Shown here one piece after another: positions 26,489-61,440 of a DNA stretch of 64,000 nucleotides. The first letter of the stretch is position 1; each line of letters starts with the position of its first letter. The translations under genes and the position numbers were made by a program. Origin of the DNA: Clostridia bacterium (GTDB lineage: Bacteria > Bacillota > Clostridia > Christensenellales > Aristaeellaceae); the NCBI GenBank assembly GCA_017550745.1, contig JAFZOG010000072.1, forward strand, positions 1 through 64,000, in the 5' to 3' direction. The notes below the pieces were generated by a model. It worked only from the letters and a program-made list of their open reading frames with translations. It ran no database searches and was not told the DNA's origin.

Positions 26489-27250
26489 CTATACGCTGAA
26501 CAGTTCATGTTCCAGCACGTCCGCGTAATTCTGTACAACCGGCCCCAGCTCTTTCATCCCCAGCTTAATATCCTCCCTGCCTTTGAAGGATAACGGATGT
26601 TGCCGGATTTCGATTGTTTTTCTCAGCGGCGTGTCATCCGGAAAAAGGTGTTCCTCCAGTGCCCAGATTCCTGCCTGTGTTTTGGAGATGACATCATAAT
26701 GTCTCAGGGTATAGATACACCGGGCGATATCCAGCAGCCATCCGCAAGAATAAAGGCTTTCATCTGTTTGACAAGCATACTTTCGGATCGTGTCATAATG
26801 CCTGCGTACGGCTGATGCCAGTTCTTCTTTGCCAGGCGCGGGAAGAATCCATGGTTTGCCGCCGTATACGGGTATTCCATATTTTGACAGCTCAAACAGA
26901 GAAAAAGGATCCGGTATATAGCGGTCGGTGATCCGTTGCCCGCTCGTTCCCCAATAAACCAGTCTTTGAAAGGACTGGCTGCGGTATTCGTCCAAGCTGG
27001 CAATGACGCCTTCAAAAGAACGGTAATACAAGTTGCGGGGCTCTGTTTTGAGCATGTCCTGCCTGAGCGTCAGCAATCTTTCTGCCTGGTTTTCAGAGAT
27101 TGGACCATGAATCAGCGCAACAAAATCAATATCACTCCAACCCAGCCGAAAATCATCCAACGCGACACTTCCGTAAAGCCAGGCACCGTAAACACAGCCG
27201 TTCATCGTTGAGACGATTTCATTCATTATCCTTGTAATCGCATGAAACAT
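26489..27250 (-). CDS. Nucleotidyltransferase-domain protein (DUF4111-like)
   Basis: The 253-residue product has the minimal nucleotidyltransferase motif GSVALDDFRLGWSDIDFVAL (GS...DxD) near the N-terminus. A helical C-terminal domain with CIYTLRHYDVISKTQAGIWA follows, as in aminoglycoside adenylyltransferase-like DUF4111 proteins. It could adenylylate a small molecule, but the substrate is unknown. The start is ambiguous: ATG at 27250 has a purine-rich GGTGGAG that is very close; TTG at 27298 and a downstream ATG at 27223 are alternatives. Its lower GC content than its neighbours suggests a more recent arrival. Confidence 0.75.
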   Translation of the reverse strand: MFHAITRIMNEIVSTMNGCVYGAWLYGSVALDDFRLGWSDIDFVALIHGPISENQAERLLTLRQDMLKTEPRNLYYRSFEGVIASLDEYRSQSFQRLVYWGTSGQRITDRYIPDPFSLFELSKYGIPVYGGKPWILPAPGKEELASAVRRHYDTIRKYACQTDESLYSCGWLLDIARCIYTLRHYDVISKTQAGIWALEEHLFPDDTPLRKTIEIRQHPLSFKGREDIKLGMKELGPVVQNYADVLEHELFSV

Positions 27251-27296
27251 ACTCCACCGCCATATCCCGTTTTGCCGGGCAGAACCGCCATAAACC

Positions 27297-27338
27297 AATG
27301 GCGCAATTCAGCACCGGGCCGGTGATAATTGCGCCATT
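27297..27338 (-). terminator. Hairpin downstream of trxA
   Basis: AATGGCGCAATT (27297-27308) pairs with AATTGCGCCATT (27327-27338), with an inner CACCG/CGGTG stem. It lies just after the trxA stop; only a weak T-run follows on the minus strand. Confidence 0.65.
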
Positions 27339-27354
27339 TGGTTTACACGGTGAA

Positions 27355-27669
27355 TTACAGGTTGCCCTGAATCCAGGCGGTGATCATGGGTTCGGGCTTG
27401 AAGCCGACGGACTGGTCCACGAACTGGCCGTTCTTCATCATCACCAGGCAGGGCACGGAACTGACCTTGTACGCCATGGCCAGCTCGGGAGAATCGTCCA
27501 CGTCCACGTTGTAGAAGTCCACCTTGCCCGCCAGCTTCTCGCTGACGCTTTCCACCACGGGGGCCAGCATCCGGCAGGGGCCGCACCAGGTCGCGGAGAA
27601 ATCCACCACCGCCACGGCGCTCTTCTTTGCTTCGTTTTCAAACTGTTCCGCGTTGATCTTCTTAACCAT
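27355..27669 (-). CDS. trxA: Thioredoxin
   Basis: The 104-residue product has the classical thioredoxin fold sequence with active site WCGPC at residues 28-32, DVDDSPELAMAYKVSSVPC and the cis-proline in SVPCLV. It reduces protein disulfides in the cytoplasm. The start at 27669 has AGGAGA upstream. It follows the reductase-like gene, separated by a GGGGGAAACC-type hairpin, so the two form a probable operon. Confidence 0.95.
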   Translation of the reverse strand: MVKKINAEQFENEAKKSAVAVVDFSATWCGPCRMLAPVVESVSEKLAGKVDFYNVDVDDSPELAMAYKVSSVPCLVMMKNGQFVDQSVGFKPEPMITAWIQGNL

Positions 27670-27695
27670 TTTCTTTTTCTCCTTTTTTATTTTTT

Positions 27696-27740
27696 CCGGG
27701 GGAACCCGCTCTTTGGTGGCCAAAGAGCGGGTTCCCCCAG
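27696..27740. repeat. GGGGGAAACC-type dispersed hairpin, copy 4
   Basis: CCGGGGGAACCCGCTCTTTG and its near-perfect complement CAAAGAGCGGGTTCCCCC close on a five-base loop. It is intercistronic between the reductase-like gene and trxA, like the copy inside the btu operon. Confidence 0.8.
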
Positions 27741-27742
27741 CA

Positions 27743-28603
27743 TCACTTCCGTTCCTTCTGATCCAGAAATGCCACAGCGCTGAGGGCGGCCACGTTGCCC
27801 TCGCCCGCGGCCTTGATGTATTGGTAAGGCGTGCCGGTGATATCCCCGCAGGCGAACACGCCGGGGATGCTTGCGGCCATTTTGCGGTCCACCCGCACAT
27901 GGCTGCCGTCCGTTTCCAGGCCGGGCACCAGCTGGCTCGGCGCGACAGCTTCCCGCAGCACGAACACCCCGTCCACAGTATACCCGTTTTCCGCGGTTTT
28001 GACAACCCGGGCGCCGTCCTGATTTTCAATCCCGGCCACCTTCTCCCGGATGACCTTCACGGCCTCGGGGAGATGGGTCTCCTCCTTGTACACGGGGAAA
28101 TACAGCACTTCGCTGCATACCTCGGAAAGGAACGCAGCTTCCGCTTCTTCCCTCGGTCTGTAGCCGATCACGGCGGCGCGCTTGCCCCGGTACAGCGGCG
28201 CGTCGCAGGTGGCGCAGTAGCTGACGCCCCGGCCCAGCAGTTCTTCTTCCCCCGGCAGGGGCTTTGCCTGCACCACGCCGGTGGCCAGGATCACGCTGGA
28301 GGCTTCCAGCATGTCTTCCCCCGCCTGGAGCGCGAAGAAATCGCCCATGGCGTATACGGCGCTCACCCGTTTTTCGGTGATCTGAATGCCCATTTGGCTG
28401 ATATGCCGCTGGAACGCCGCGGCCAGGTCTTCTCCCTTTACCGCGGGGAAGCCCAGGTAATTCTGGATCTCATGGGCTTTGGCCAGCTTTTCGCACAAAT
28501 TCCTGCTGCCCAGCAAAAGCACGCGCTTATTCCGGATCGTGGCTGTGACGGCTGCCGACAGCCCCGCCGGGCCGGTGCCGATGATGGCGATGTCATAACG
28601 CAT
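27743..28603 (-). CDS. Thioredoxin reductase-like flavoprotein lacking the NADPH motif
   Basis: The 286-residue product has the FAD dinucleotide loop IGTGPAG (residues 8-14), the redox pair CATC (residues 130-133) and the C-terminal FAD motif ACGDITGTPYQYIKAAGEG. The NADPH-binding loop, normally GGGxSAxEEA, reads IGYRPREEAEAAFL (residues 146-159), and the HRRxxxRA motif is absent. Clostridial ferredoxin-linked flavin thioredoxin reductases (FFTR) share such a loss, so ferredoxin may be the donor. It presumably reduces the thioredoxin encoded next. The start ATG has AGGAGG upstream. Confidence 0.88.
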   Translation of the reverse strand: MRYDIAIIGTGPAGLSAAVTATIRNKRVLLLGSRNLCEKLAKAHEIQNYLGFPAVKGEDLAAAFQRHISQMGIQITEKRVSAVYAMGDFFALQAGEDMLEASSVILATGVVQAKPLPGEEELLGRGVSYCATCDAPLYRGKRAAVIGYRPREEAEAAFLSEVCSEVLYFPVYKEETHLPEAVKVIREKVAGIENQDGARVVKTAENGYTVDGVFVLREAVAPSQLVPGLETDGSHVRVDRKMAASIPGVFACGDITGTPYQYIKAAGEGNVAALSAVAFLDQKERK

Positions 28604-28711
28604 TTCTTAACCTCCTAATCAGCGGGTTGGGAAAGCACAGGGTACGGCATGCAGATGACAGGAGCCGGCGACAGAACCATTTGGCGGCAAAATGATCTGT
28701 AGGCCGCTTAC

Positions 28712-29254
28712 TCAAAGCAGCTTTTCAACCAACGCCGCCACGTCTTTCATGCTGGCGGTGGGCTCGAAGCGGGCGACAACGCTGCCCTGGCGGTCAATGA
28801 CGAACTTGGTGAAGTTCCATTTGATGTCGGGGTTGTTTTTGTAGTCCTTATCGATCTTTTTGAGCATCGTGCCCATGGCGAGCGCCATGGGGCCGTGGCC
28901 GAAGCCTTCAAAGCCCTTTTGGCTCTTGAGGTACTGGAACAGCGGCAGGGCGTTTTCGCCGTTCACGTCGCTCTTTTTCATCTGGGGAAACTGGGTGTTG
29001 TATTTCAGGGCGCAGAATTCATGGATCTCGTCGTCGGTGCCGGGGGTTTGCCCGGCGAACTGGTTGCAGGGCACGTCCACGATCTCCAGGCCCTTTTCGT
29101 GGAACTTCTCATACATGTCCTCCAGATCCTTGTAATGGGGCGTGAAGCCGCAGCCCGTGGCGGTGTTCACCACCAGCACCACCTTGCCTTCAAAGTTCTT
29201 CATGGAAACATCTTCACCCTTCGGGGCGGGTACACTGTAATCGTAAAAACTCAT
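28712..29254 (-). CDS. Glutathione peroxidase family (thiol peroxidase)
   Basis: The 180-residue product has the catalytic cysteine at residue 35 (NTATGCGFTPHYKDLE) in place of selenocysteine, the glutamine-containing motif DVPCNQFAGQ, and WNFTKFVID with the tryptophan and asparagine of the tetrad. Most bacterial members use thioredoxin rather than glutathione, which fits the thioredoxin genes next to it. The start at 29254 has AGGAG upstream. A promoter lies at 29315-29342. Confidence 0.93.
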   Translation of the reverse strand: MSFYDYSVPAPKGEDVSMKNFEGKVVLVVNTATGCGFTPHYKDLEDMYEKFHEKGLEIVDVPCNQFAGQTPGTDDEIHEFCALKYNTQFPQMKKSDVNGENALPLFQYLKSQKGFEGFGHGPMALAMGTMLKKIDKDYKNNPDIKWNFTKFVIDRQGSVVARFEPTASMKDVAALVEKLL

Positions 29255-29314
29255 GATGCCATTCTCCTTTATGATGTACTGTTTGAGGCTGATCAATAAC
29301 TTTAATCAAATATA

Positions 29315-29342
29315 ATTTTATCACATTTTTTTGTTTTGTCAA
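29315..29342 (-). promoter_or_regulatory. Promoter of the glutathione peroxidase gene
   Basis: On the minus strand TTGACA (29337-29342) and TAAAAT (29315-29320) are separated by 16 bases, in a very AT-rich stretch where a redox repressor could bind. Confidence 0.7.
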
Positions 29343-29452
29343 TCCCTGTTTTTGGATTTTCTGGAAAGAAATTTACAGGTTCATTCCTGCCGGCCCGAAA
29401 TGGATAAATCGCCAGAATGAACACAACAGATATAACAGAAATAAAATGAATT

Positions 29453-29484
29453 TGTTATACTCTTTTTTCAAAATCTGTTATGAT
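29453..29484 (+). promoter_or_regulatory. Two extended -10 elements before the first small peptide gene
   Basis: TGTTATACT (29453-29461) and TGTTATGAT (29476-29484) are both extended -10 boxes 23 bases apart. Neither has a good -35, which suggests activator-dependent transcription. A partial inverted repeat (GATATAACAG at 29429-29438 against CTGTTATGATATC at 29475-29487) overlaps them. Confidence 0.45.
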
Positions 29485-29534
29485 ATCCTCGTCACCGGGA
29501 AGGATACCCGGTGAGGAATAGGAGGAAAAAAACC

Positions 29535-29684
29535 ATGTTGTATTCCATGATGAACCAGTACATGAGCAATCTTTCCAGTGTTCTGGCCGAGGATGTGAAC
29601 GCGCCGGAGCTGCGCAATCCCATCACCGGCGGGATGCGGAAGGATGGCTGGCTGCAGCGCCTGCTTCAAAAAGCCGGGCTGTAA
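29535..29684 (+). CDS. Small peptide A of a paralogous pair (49 residues)
   Basis: The product is 49 residues with no cysteine and no transmembrane segment. A variable methionine-rich start (MLYSMMNQYMSNLSS) precedes the core VLAEDVNAPELRNPITGGMR, and the end is the basic amphipathic helix WLQRLLQKAGL. AGGAGG stands ten bases before the ATG. The near-identical core in the next gene and the conserved spacing argue that both are real. I do not recognise the family. Possible roles are a signal peptide for the AraC regulator next door, a ribosomal peptide precursor or a small regulator; none is shown by the sequence. Confidence 0.75.
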   Translation: MLYSMMNQYMSNLSSVLAEDVNAPELRNPITGGMRKDGWLQRLLQKAGL

Positions 29685-29816
29685 CGGCGAACGCAGTCAA
29701 AGAAAAAACACAAAATGAATAAAACAGAAAACACATGGAAATGATAGCGATGGCCCGCAAATAGTTTAAAATGTATTTGTCACTGAAACACGGACCGGAA
29801 TAAAGGAGGATTTTAC

Positions 29817-29951
29817 ATGATGAATAATGATATGCAGCATTTGTCTTATATGCTGGCGGAGGACGTGAACGCTCCCGAGCTGCGTAACCCCCTGAACAGC
29901 GGCATGCGCCGGGAAAGCTGGCTTCGCCGCCTGTTGAAAAAAGTCCTGTAA
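29817..29951 (+). CDS. Small peptide B of a paralogous pair (44 residues)
   Basis: The product is 44 residues. It shares LAEDVNAPELRNP and the pattern GMRxxxWLxRLLxK with peptide A, while its N-terminus (MMNNDMQHLSYM) differs. The ribosome binding site is AAAGGAGG seven bases before the ATG. It lies 132 bases after peptide A and ends just before a strong terminator. The gap between the two contains an AT-rich segment (TTTAAAATG) that could be a second promoter. The conserved block in third-position-divergent codons indicates selection on the protein. Confidence 0.75.
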   Translation: MMNNDMQHLSYMLAEDVNAPELRNPLNSGMRRESWLRRLLKKVL

Positions 29952-29956
29952 CAAAG

Positions 29957-29992
29957 ACGCCGCGCGCCGGAAAAAGGCGCGCGGTAATTTTT
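29957..29992 (+). terminator. Terminator after the small peptide genes
   Basis: CCGCGCGCC and GGCGCGCGG arms around a seven-base A-rich loop are followed by TAATTTTTT. It ends at the stop of the convergent AraC gene. Confidence 0.9.
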
Positions 29993-30756
29993 TACGCTTT
30001 CTCGGAGCTGCTCCCCCAATGCTTTTGATAGTGCGCCTTTCGGTATTCGGTAGGCGTATGCCCGGTGTATTTGCGAAAGAGCAGGGAAAAGTGGCTGTCG
30101 GAGGAAAAGCAGAGGTATTCGGCGATGTCCAGGCAGGAAAAATCCGTGTATTCCAGCAGGGTTTTCGCGGTCTCGATCCGCTTCCTGCGTATGTATTCGG
30201 ACACGGCGACGCCGGTTTCCTTCATGAACAGCACGGATACATAAGAGGCGGAGAGGCCCACCTCCCCGGCCAGGCTTTTCACTGTCACCGGCTGCTGCAA
30301 ATGGCTGTCAATATAATCCATGCAGCGGCGCACCTGCCGGGAATAAACGCTCTGCCGCCCGATGGACCGCATCCGCTGGGTATAATCCCGGAACATGGCG
30401 TCGTGCAGGTCAAAGATTTCCTGCACGGTCTTGCATTTGTCCATCTGCCGGATGTACACGTCGCTCAGGTTGAACGCGGTTTCCGCGGGCATGCCGCCCT
30501 CAATGCAGAACCGGCAGGCCATCGTGATGGAGGCGACAAACAAATATTGGTAATTCCTGACCGGGTCGTCGGAAATGGAGCCGGTGGTGGGCCCTTCAAA
30601 CATCTTTTTGCCCACGGAAATCGCTTTCATGCTCCCCTGGCGGATGTATTCGTACTGGCGAAGGTCTTCTTCATACGTATGGTGCTGAAAATTCGTTTCC
30701 CGGTTGTCAAAGGCCAGCTTCTCCAGCGCCTCCGCGATCTTGCGGTTGACCGCCAT
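29992..30756 (-). CDS. AraC family transcriptional regulator
   Basis: The 254-residue product has an N-terminal helical domain (about residues 1-145, including MACRFCIEGGMPAETAFNLSD, as in many clostridial AraC proteins). The C-terminal AraC-type double helix-turn-helix follows (VKSLAGEVGLSASYVSVLFMK, then IAEYLCFSSDSHFSLLFRKY). It lacks a receiver aspartate. The start has GGAGGG upstream. It converges on the two small peptide genes and is a plausible regulator of them, although that is inference from position only. Confidence 0.9.
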   Translation of the reverse strand: MAVNRKIAEALEKLAFDNRETNFQHHTYEEDLRQYEYIRQGSMKAISVGKKMFEGPTTGSISDDPVRNYQYLFVASITMACRFCIEGGMPAETAFNLSDVYIRQMDKCKTVQEIFDLHDAMFRDYTQRMRSIGRQSVYSRQVRRCMDYIDSHLQQPVTVKSLAGEVGLSASYVSVLFMKETGVAVSEYIRRKRIETAKTLLEYTDFSCLDIAEYLCFSSDSHFSLLFRKYTGHTPTEYRKAHYQKHWGSSSEKA

Positions 30757-30795
30757 GGACAGTTTTCCCTCCTTGTGTAAGTACCTGTATGAAAT

Positions 30796-31242
30796 GGCAC
30801 TTTAAGTCAGTAACGAAACGACGAGGCGAGGGCCTCTGCGGCCCTCGTGCACCTGCACCAAAGGACTTCGTCCTCTGGACTCCGACAGCGGAAACATCCT
30901 GTCAGGACGAATTGGCTTTGTTTCCGCAGAAACTTGAGAGAAACAGGCAGACTTTCGACGTGATGCTTCTGGCCCGGCGGCTGAAAGCCGCCTGACCGGA
31001 CGCAAAGCGTCCGGTGAAAGCCAGGGAATAATCCCCAGGGGAAAGCTCGCTTTCCCCTGGGGATTATCCCGGCTTTCTTGGGCCAGAAGCCGCTAACTTC
31101 CGTATCCCTGAATCAACTGGCGAAGATAGCTGGTTCTACCCAACGAAGTGTTTCGCCTATTGGGATGCAAGGGATGAAATCCCTTGCCGCAGGTCTGGGC
31201 GCGCGCAGCGCCCAGCGTAACCCCTTACTAACTTAAAGTGCC
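30796..31242. mobile_element. Structured MITE-like element with CACTTTAAGTCAGTAA ends, copy 1
   Basis: The 447-bp element begins GGCACTTTAAGTCAGTAA and ends with the complement (TTACTAACTTAAAGTGCC). It has no coding capacity. Inside are at least six local hairpins: GAGGGCC/GGCCCTC, CCAAAGGAC/GTCCTCTGG, GGCGGC/GCCGCC, CCGGACG/CGTCCGG, a 15-bp stem at 31027-31066, and CAAGGGAT/ATCCCTTG. CTTCTGGCCC (30964-30973) pairs over distance with GGGCCAGAAG (31080-31089). Ends with the same sequence bound the element at 61139-61435. It fills the space between the AraC and prfA genes. Confidence 0.75.
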
Positions 31243-31258
31243 CTTTTCAGCAGCCTAA

Positions 31259-32323
31259 TCATCCCATATTCATCGCCTGCAGTTTTTCCGCCTGTTCCTT
31301 CATGGTGAGGGCGTCGATGATCTCGTCCAGGTCGCCGTCCAGGATGGCGTCGATTTTGTAGAGAGTCAGGTCGGCGCGGTGGTCGGTGACGCGGCCCTGG
31401 GGAAAATTGTAGGTGCGGATGCGCTCGTTGCGCTCGCCGCTGCCCACCTGGGACTTGCGGTTTTGGGCGTAGGCCGCGTCTTTCTCGGCGCGGTAGAGGT
31501 CATACAGCCGGGAGGCCAGCACCTTCATGGCTTTTTCCTTGTTTTTGAGCTGGCTCTTTTCGTCCTGGCAGGTGACCACCAGCCCCGTGGGCAAATGCGT
31601 GATGCGCACGGCGGAGTCTGTGCGGTTGATGTACTGGCCGCCGTGGCCGGAGGCGCGGTAGGTGTCGATGCGGATGTCCTCCTGCCTGATCTCCACCTCC
31701 ACATCCTCGGCCTCGGGCAGGACGGCCACGGTGGCGGTCGAGGTGTGGATGCGCCCCCCCGCTTCAGTGACCGGTACGCGCTGGATGCGGTGCACGCCGG
31801 ATTCAAACTTCATCCGGGAAAAAGCGCCGACGCCGTTCAGGGTGAACACCGCTTCCTTGATGCCCTTGAGCTCCGTGGTGGAAATATCCACCGGCTCAAA
31901 CTGGAACCCCTTCCGCTCGGCATAACGCTGGTACATGCGCAGCAGCAGCGCGGCAAACAGCGCCGCCTCGTCGCCGCCCGCGCCGGGACGGATCTCCATC
32001 ACCACGGAACGGTCGTCGTTGGGGTCGTGGGGAAGGAGGAACAGGCGCAGCTTGTTTCGCTCCTCCTCTTCGCGGGGAAGCAGCGCTTTCAGCTCTTCCT
32101 CCGCCATTTCCGCAAGATCCCGGTCGTTCTGCATTTCCCTGGCCTGGTCGATTTCCGCCTGCAATTGCCGGTATTGCCGCCAGGCGGCTACGGCAGGCTC
32201 CAGCCGGCGCATTTCCTTCAGCATGGCCTGCCATTTGGGCACGTCGGCAATGATCTCCGGCTGGGCGGTGGCGACGGTCAATTCTTCCAGCCGCCCTTCC
32301 ATGGCCTCAAACTGCGCTTCCAT
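31259..32323 (-). CDS. prfA: Peptide chain release factor 1
   Basis: The 354-residue product is a class I release factor. The GGQ motif that triggers peptidyl-tRNA hydrolysis is in [20 protein letters not shown]. Other family blocks are [25 protein letters not shown] and [16 protein letters not shown]. The tripeptide selecting UAA/UAG should lie near [13 protein letters not shown]. The start at 32323 has GAGGGGGG upstream. The gene follows the GGDEF gene by about 70 bases and is followed by the structured element. Confidence 0.96.
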
Positions 32324-61138: not shown

Positions 61139-61435
61139 CACTTTAGGTAAGTAAAGGGATCAGGGATTAGGGAATAGGGAATAGGGATTAGGCGAACAAG
61201 CACGTCTGTCATCCCTTCGACTACGCTCAGGGCAGGCTCTGAGCCGCCACGATACGGATGTGGCGTGCGAAGGAACTCCTTCGTTCCTTGTAAAGATGCT
61301 TTTACGAGTGAGTTTCTTCGCACGTGCCCATCTGTATAGTGAGGTCCTTCGCTTCGCTCAGGATGACAGGGTGGGTTCTCCCCTGATCCCTAATCCCTAA
61401 TCCCTAATCCCTGATCCCTTTACTGACTTAAAGTG
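61139..61435. mobile_element. MITE-like element with CACTTTAAGTCAGTAA ends, copy 2
   Basis: The left end CACTTTAGGTAAGTAAAGGG is matched by the right end CCCTTTACTGACTTAAAGTG. The second arm equals the left end of the element at 30796 base for base over 16 bases. Inside, AGGGATTAGGG-type repeats face their complement CCCTAATCCCT, and a GTCATC...GATGAC repeat is nested in the middle. It ends a few bases from the stop codon of the L,D-transpeptidase gene. Confidence 0.75.
61208..61367. repeat. GTCATC...GATGAC dispersed repeat, copy 3 (nested)
   Basis: It starts GTCATCCCTTCGACTACGCT and ends CTTCGCTCAGGATGAC. It lies inside the larger palindromic element at 61139-61435. Confidence 0.7.
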
Positions 61436-61440
61436 CCCTT

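Follow-up and report, generated by a model that had tools for sequence, protein, structure and literature searches.

A small protein family associated with AraC-type regulators in one bacterial family of Clostridia

AcrZ of Escherichia coli is a 49-residue protein that spans the membrane. Its gene is activated by the AraC-family proteins MarA, SoxS and Rob, which also activate efflux genes, and AcrZ complexes with AcrB, an association thought to modulate the binding of some substrates (PMC11554990). The ANR proteins, among them Aar and Rnr, are small proteins coupled to AraC-type regulators in the accounts that two further sources give of them (PMC5570504; PMC10148876). Aar, the archetype of the group, has 63 residues and binds AggR according to the first of these accounts (PMC5570504).

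Annotation often overlooks proteins of fewer than 60 residues, and a regulator is known for few of them. Two adjacent genes in this size range are present on the plus strand of the window, by which we mean the whole 64,000-nucleotide stretch that was analysed. A first-pass annotation had described them as frames of 49 and 44 codons with strong ribosome-binding sites. Both frames are open. Gene 1 (29535..29684) encodes a product of 49 aa, MLYSMMNQYMSNLSSVLAEDVNAPELRNPITGGMRKDGWLQRLLQKAGL, gene 2 (29817..29951) one of 44 aa, MMNNDMQHLSYMLAEDVNAPELRNPLNSGMRRESWLRRLLKKVL, and their ribosome sites, at 29520-29525 and 29803-29809, respectively, are of the AGGAGG type. The 13-residue block LAEDVNAPELRNP is identical in the two products and is followed in both by GMR and WLxRLL, as the annotation had it. 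Over 131 nt the DNA of the two genes aligns without a gap at 70% identity. Their products agree at 29 of 44 aligned residues, 13 of these shared residues being encoded by different codons. Within the block 6 of the 13 codons differ, every change is silent, and between the two genes dN is 0.26 and dS 1.04. Across the family dN is lower than dS in 13 of the 14 distinct peptide pairs computed, the sole pair with dN above dS being L056/L067. The silent changes and the low dN argue that the protein itself matters, which is what the annotation had proposed for the two copies.

The two peptides are too short for simple searches. Single-peptide searches gave nothing convincing outside the genome of the window, and matches at E 0.2-0.8 in 10 of 59 other genomes were taken as chance. 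The same was done with a weak match that contains an internal stop (G023, E 0.006), the one match that a two-row profile, run across the genus, gave beyond the window's own genome. Scans of public genomes and viruses with peptide patterns yielded no confirmed member. A search with the AraC protein encoded next to the pair led to L015 and L016, records of uncultured Clostridia (one labelled as from water buffalo rumen) in which the AraC protein is 69% identical to that of the window and a diverged peptide gene stands beside the AraC gene. These two records are, by length and content, apparently the same contigs as G199:C464 (L047) and G180:C4 (L048) and were not counted as extra genomes. A four-row profile of the conserved core then hit 45 places (E 0.02), spread over 29 of the 308 genomes examined from the window's bacterial family, and a 35-row profile found the peptide in 29 of the 308, distributed over 9 of 50 genera with one to three copies each (E 0.01). 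The frame of the shared block is intact in these relatives. In the window's genus one of 29 genomes has the peptide by the 35-row profile, and among 396 genomes sampled from the order and 391 sampled from the class the window's own genome alone was matched. Genes 1 and 2 match the 35-row profile (A6) at E 1.8e-20 and 2.6e-20, each being itself a row of that profile. A third, diverged and weakly matching relative, MTMIREMLNAHAMNILMSEDVNEPSLR... (E 0.003 with the 35-row profile), is present on another contig of the same genome (L173, 5107-5391, minus strand), beside a gene that by eye resembles an ion channel gene.

From the 45 places G307:C211 (internal stop) and G122 and G035 (both weak) were dropped, and G000:C130 was viewed apart. 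The resulting 39 rows and the two window genes make up the 41 peptides considered here; counts over 40 peptides omit L047, and counts over 40 loci treat the window as one locus beside the other 39. Scans with 35 members found no convincing fit to the family in Pfam, NCBIfam, PHROG, PADLOC or PDB, in agreement with the annotation, which knew no family for the pair. The best matches, taken as chance, were at E 0.046 in Pfam, 0.15 in PHROGs, 0.04 in PADLOC and 0.92 in PDB, and in NCBIfam at E 0.0056, where one of the 35 members matched a flavorubredoxin model. The core motif had no match in print in the literature searched. By these profile matches the peptide pair are not orphans, and their family is a previously unnamed one of narrow range.

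Members have 44 to 87 residues, with 38 of 40 no longer than 62. All 41 begin with ATG and have a Shine-Dalgarno match of 5-8 nt, two features by which the starts were partly chosen. The alignment of 35 rows, from which six peptides (L062, L069, L081, L082, L084 and L085), the most diverged of the 41 among them, were set aside for being near copies or diverged, reveals three parts: a head rich in Met and Asn, a core of the form (A/S)ED(V/T/A)xxPELRNPxxSGMR, and a basic, variable tail that often contains GWLxRLF. The E and D of the core and the L and R of its ELR are invariant across the 35 rows. Tails have a net charge of at least +2 in 38 of 40 members (mean +5), and heads are near 0. The tails are mildly amphipathic, modestly above shuffled sequences (mean hydrophobic-moment z 0.62, s.e. 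0.13), and the heads are not (0.08). Five of 40 tails (L058, L062, L070, L083 and L085) end in a stretch whose hydrophobicity suggests a membrane anchor. This replacement of an amphipathic tail by a hydrophobic one in some members suggests that the tail associates with the membrane. Mean hydropathy exceeds 1.6 over 15 residues in just five of 40 members, and the window pair reach 0.29 and 0.01. In L047 (L015, 1-378), at a contig edge, the peptide frame reads in frame into the end of an acetyltransferase-like gene; in L049, its near relative, peptide and acetyltransferase are two separate genes. The fusion could be real or could be explained by a deletion or an assembly join.

The gene of an AraC-family regulator (29992..30756, minus strand, 254 aa) converges on the window pair, as the first-pass annotation had noted. 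Its product has a C-terminal AraC helix-turn-helix (PF12833, E 6.6e-20), and PF00165 matched it in two stretches. For its N-domain Pfam gave no match and a PDB search nothing usable. The best NCBIfam match is TIGR04094, at 124.5 bits against a cut-off of 200. At E 1e-40 the window AraC protein has matches in 32 of the 308 genomes of the bacterial family. AraC type and peptide are both present in 22 genomes, the AraC type alone in 10, the peptide alone in 7 and neither in 269 (odds ratio 85; Fisher p 3e-20, which overstates the case, the genomes being related and incomplete). The seven peptide-only genomes are drafts, some of which may merely appear to lack the AraC type. In the window's genus the AraC type occurs in one of 29 genomes, the same genome as the peptide. 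In g35 it occurs in 6 of 45 genomes, all within the eight that have the peptide, and in g69 in 8 of 28, including all seven peptide genomes (p 7e-6). Because several genomes (G263, G181, G308, G211 and G212) carry the AraC type and the peptide on different contigs, this co-occurrence is not a matter of linkage alone. G262 has a second AraC gene of this type apart from the peptide.

An AraC gene lies within 7 kb of the peptide in 25 of 40 loci, and in 15 it adjoins the peptide at a distance of no more than 176 nt. L055 and L080 are overlapping loci with one AraC gene in common, and contig ends cut some loci. The distances among peptides and among the AraC proteins of the same loci are correlated (Mantel r 0.40; p 0.001 for 13 loci and 0.0002 for 17), a correlation that includes strain relatedness. 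On these comparisons the link between peptide and AraC type, which the annotation had proposed from the window, is well supported. Other regulators also stand beside the peptide: the AraC protein of L072 has a cupin-type N-domain, that of L084 is similar by eye, and among the neighbours listed a LysR gene adjoins the peptide in L055 and L076. Around 14 AraC loci away from known peptides a rigid pattern found no peptide within about 1.5 kb. In the eight of these that were inspected by eye, the genes nearby were for a reductase (L182), an acetyltransferase (L183), a transporter (L179), a glycosidase (L174) and other products (L175, L181, L184 and L185). These loci make it probable that the peptide is one member of a broader regulon of the AraC type.

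In 10 members of the genus, 2.1-13.2 kb of sequence downstream of prfA carried none of the nine window genes from ThiF to AraC, and none of the other 28 genomes of the genus has the AraC type at E 1e-40. Peptide and AraC gene would thus have been gained here, have moved, or have been lost in the others, and their patchy presence suggests horizontal transfer. No mobile element that would account for such spread was identified; phages, plasmids and viral contigs gave nothing, the plasmid and phage matches having E values of 3 to 5. Contamination of the assembly was ruled out, as the prfA of the contig shares 80-93% identity with the prfA genes of the 10 members of the genus that were compared. 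Between AraC and prfA, at 30792-31246, the window contains a stretch of 455 bp with inverted repeats of 22 nt (91%) at its ends and a 22-nt hairpin inside; the sequence of one end recurs exactly at 61420-61437, and the stretch looks like a miniature inverted-repeat element. A nucleotidyltransferase gene at 26489-27298 has a weak match to PF13427, the aminoglycoside adenylyltransferase C-terminal domain (E 4e-5).

Operator-like direct repeats of one family, D2, precede each of the window genes. Before gene 1 the repeat is present as two overlapping copies with a spacing of 9 bp, among them AACAGAAATAAAATGAAT (29425..29451, plus strand), and a pattern made from this repeat has three matches in the 64 kb including itself, with 0.23 expected. 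Before gene 2 two copies lie 20 bp apart (29703..29740, plus strand), with 78% and 72% similarity to the reference copy, which stands before gene 1. A probable -10 box of gene 1, TATGAT at 29479..29484 (plus strand), was read by eye; a script picked another hexamer, and boxes similar to TATGAT recur in relatives. For gene 2 the script's pick, TAAAAT at 29767..29772 (plus strand), is weak and marks a possible -10 box. Just past the probable transcription start of gene 1 the leader may form a hairpin, UCACCGGG-AAGGAUA-CCCGGUGA (29492..29514, plus strand, fold z -3.4); the leader of gene 2 has no clear hairpin. An intrinsic terminator of 10 pairs with a T run follows gene 2 (29959..29985, plus strand, fold z -3.8). 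The first-pass annotation had the two genes share this terminator. The terminator itself stands, and a single transcript need not follow from it, because repeats of one family precede each gene.

These features extend to the family. In 39 non-redundant peptide promoters the strongest direct-repeat period is 20 bp (z 7.9 against shuffles), the next being 11 bp (z 3.4). The mean best match at 20 bp is 6.95, compared with 5.54 in 113 control promoters from the same loci, and at least 9 of 10 positions match at this spacing in 8 of 39 peptide promoters and in 1 of 113 controls. Strong 20-bp repeats thus belong to a minority of peptide promoters (8 of 39), and the first promoter of the window is spaced at 9 bp. 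The clear 20-bp repeats end 71-88 nt upstream of the start codon, near the -35 region of the probable promoter; upstream of L067 the direct repeat is TATTGCAAG-11-TATTGCAAG. Recognition of direct repeats is described as a property of few regulators, mostly of the AraC family (PMC9723621). From their form and position we infer that the repeats near -35 are candidate operators of the AraC type. A motif GTC(A/G)..AGG at the probable transcription start is present in 15 of 39 members and 4 of 113 controls. Leaders fold better than those of the controls (mean z -1.58 vs -0.48 in 113 control leaders; Mann-Whitney p 4e-5). A terminator was found within 140 nt of 24 of 40 members; for 17 of the 24, no frame of 120 aa on the same strand follows within 420 nt. 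The possession of a terminator of their own suggests that the peptides probably act in trans.

Among the 16 members without a found terminator, 11 continue into a same-strand gene, and five (L054, L064, L067, L069 and window gene 1) have neither. Partner identities were assigned by Pfam for the acetyltransferase of L048, the MATE gene of L055, the flavodoxin of L053 and the longest member of the reductase cluster, and for the others by BLAST clusters or by eye. Among the neighbours listed, an acetyltransferase gene follows the peptide directly in five loci (L048, L049, L061, L073 and L074) and is the second gene in L066 and L080. Within apparent operons, again among the neighbours listed, a MATE efflux gene occurs in three of 40 loci (L055, L076 and L080, two of them beside LysR), an aldo-keto reductase in L065 and L066, and a flavodoxin in L053. 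Four loci (L060, L068, L071 and L077) lie among genes of glycoside hydrolase family 3 in the listed neighbourhoods, two L060 genes being assigned by Pfam. A cluster of ABC-type proteins is present in 5 of 40 loci, at varying places, among the neighbours listed. In L070 a radical-SAM-like gene, so judged by eye and seen once, converges on the peptide from the other strand, 238 to 991 after the peptide start. Beside the window pair, on the minus strand at 27355-29296, genes for a thioredoxin, a thioredoxin-reductase-like and a glutathione-peroxidase-like protein stand in a row; the sequence downstream of prfA that was examined in 10 members of the genus does not contain them. Taken with these redox genes, the partners present in each of the 11 apparent operons render a regulon for chemical stress plausible.

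The switch, the repeats and the peptide recur as the enzymes and pumps change. This pattern fits a small effector that is made whenever the switch is on, and the best reading, a tentative one, is that of an AraC-driven small effector which acts in trans within a detoxification or efflux regulon, docked at the membrane and tuning an envelope partner. The activator would sense its signal, bind the direct repeats 20 bp apart near -35 and switch the peptide gene on, at some loci together with an acetyltransferase, efflux pump or reductase. The form and position of the repeats suggest that it is the AraC protein which binds them and acts as the activator. The small protein would remain inside the cell, where its cationic, mildly amphipathic and sometimes hydrophobic C-terminal tail could dock it on the inner face of the membrane. 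The conserved core (A/S)ED....ELR would then bind one common partner, most likely a transporter or other envelope protein, which the peptide would tune for the duration of the stress. The step from the pattern of switch, peptide and partners to a molecular action is one that we infer; docking, envelope partner and stress role are speculative, and the membrane-docked modulator is a guess whose chances we put well short of even. The comparisons do show the new family, of which genes 1 and 2 are paralogous members, as well as the mostly silent change, the co-occurrence with AraC, the enrichment of 20-bp repeats, the terminators of most members and the operon partners. Several observations run counter to the proposal. 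A basic tail is just as compatible with nucleic-acid binding or with an exported core. One of the 14 pairs has dN above dS, strong 20-bp repeats stand before a minority of the genes, and 14 AraC loci had no peptide in the stretch scanned around them. The AraC type occurs without a detected peptide in 10 genomes and the peptide without the AraC type in 7. Finally, members that adjoin glycosidase genes fit a role in sugar metabolism as well as one in detoxification.

Since the peptide adjoins an AraC gene in 15 of 40 loci, co-occurs with the AraC type and diverges in correlation with it (r 0.40, strain relatedness included), it might instead be a feedback partner: an AraC-controlled peptide that, like the Aar protein which binds AggR, binds the AraC protein to damp it. 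The partner of one regulator is not expected to keep its core across regulators as different as those beside the family, which include cupin-type AraC proteins and LysR, and 7 of 29 peptide genomes lack this AraC type at E 1e-40, with the proviso that some of these drafts may only seem to. We consider such feedback unlikely, though worth keeping in mind. The strongly basic tails, the well-folded leaders and the short units with terminators would also suit a nucleic-acid binding protein, or a dual-function transcript in which a short RNA with a folded structure and a terminator would double as the message for a basic peptide. Against such a role, the block's six codon changes are all silent and dN is below dS in nearly all pairs, which points to the protein; the Rfam scan of window positions 28500-31300 found nothing near cut-offs, and GGA in the leader loop, which would suggest control of the CsrA type, is only mildly enriched (9 of 39 vs 12 of 113), so that CsrA-type control was set aside. 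A function in binding nucleic acid, or as a structured RNA, therefore appears quite unlikely to us.

Some exporters cut at a pair of the GG, SG or SA type before the tail of a precursor. In 27 of 41 members such a small-residue pair directly precedes the basic tail (GG in 3, window gene 1 among them, and SG or SA in 24), the tail is small, cationic and variable, and some genomes have several copies. The peptides could accordingly be precursors of an exported signal, a modified peptide or an antimicrobial, with the acidic core in the leader and the cationic tail as product. The other 14 of the 41 members have no such pair, and by eye no signal sequence was seen and no maturase or exporter recurs among the neighbours listed; the radical-SAM-like gene stands alone in L070, and the ABC-type cluster changes its place over its five loci. 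A precursor appears improbable, and of the signal, precursor or small regulator that the first-pass annotation had offered, the small regulator, or effector, fits best. In 11 of 40 loci the peptide gene stands between the promoter and a gene for an enzyme or pump, a position that would be that of a leader peptide controlling translation or transcription of the next gene. A conserved block in the middle of the protein is at odds with such a function, as are the 24 terminators, 17 of them without a same-strand frame close behind, and we regard a leader peptide as highly improbable.

Returning to the membrane-docked effector, a more general statement can be made, with slightly less hesitation but still as one that may well fail. 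There would be one family, whose (A/S)ED....ELR core acts on a single conserved cell component, and which has been repeatedly rewired under different sensors (two kinds of AraC protein and LysR) and travels with an AraC switch within one bacterial family, so linking the sensing of toxic compounds or sugars to the control of that component. If this is true, a core with one common partner under several sensors would be a new coupling of chemical sensing to the envelope or metabolism in anaerobic gut bacteria. Comparative evidence alone has yielded a family, its likely switch, a likely operator and operon partners for direct testing.

The window regulator agrees with AraC/XylS proteins in its C-terminal helix-turn-helix, and the arrangement of operators in that group has its probable counterpart here in the enrichment of repeats with a 20-bp period. 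Regulators of TIGR04094 are, by the name of the model, next to their targets, the genes of YSIRK surface proteins. Unlike them, the window regulator has as its neighbour a small protein in which no surface signal was seen, and it scores below the cut-off of the model. The ANR proteins are described from Gram-negative pathogens, and their target is the AraC protein; the peptide family, in contrast, also accompanies LysR and an AraC protein whose N-domain differs. No ANR match is among the Pfam and NCBIfam results for 35 members, which bears on the question to the extent that these libraries include an ANR model. In its logic AcrZ under MarA comes closest among known systems, to judge by analogy: AcrZ is a small protein whose gene is activated along with efflux genes by AraC-family proteins, and the peptides would be under similar control. 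The partner of AcrZ is an RND pump, whereas no constant pump accompanies the peptides, and the single spanning helix of AcrZ has no equivalent in most members, 5 of 40 exceeding a hydropathy of 1.6 over 15 residues. The resemblance to AcrZ is one of logic only, that of a small protein which would stand under an AraC-type switch.
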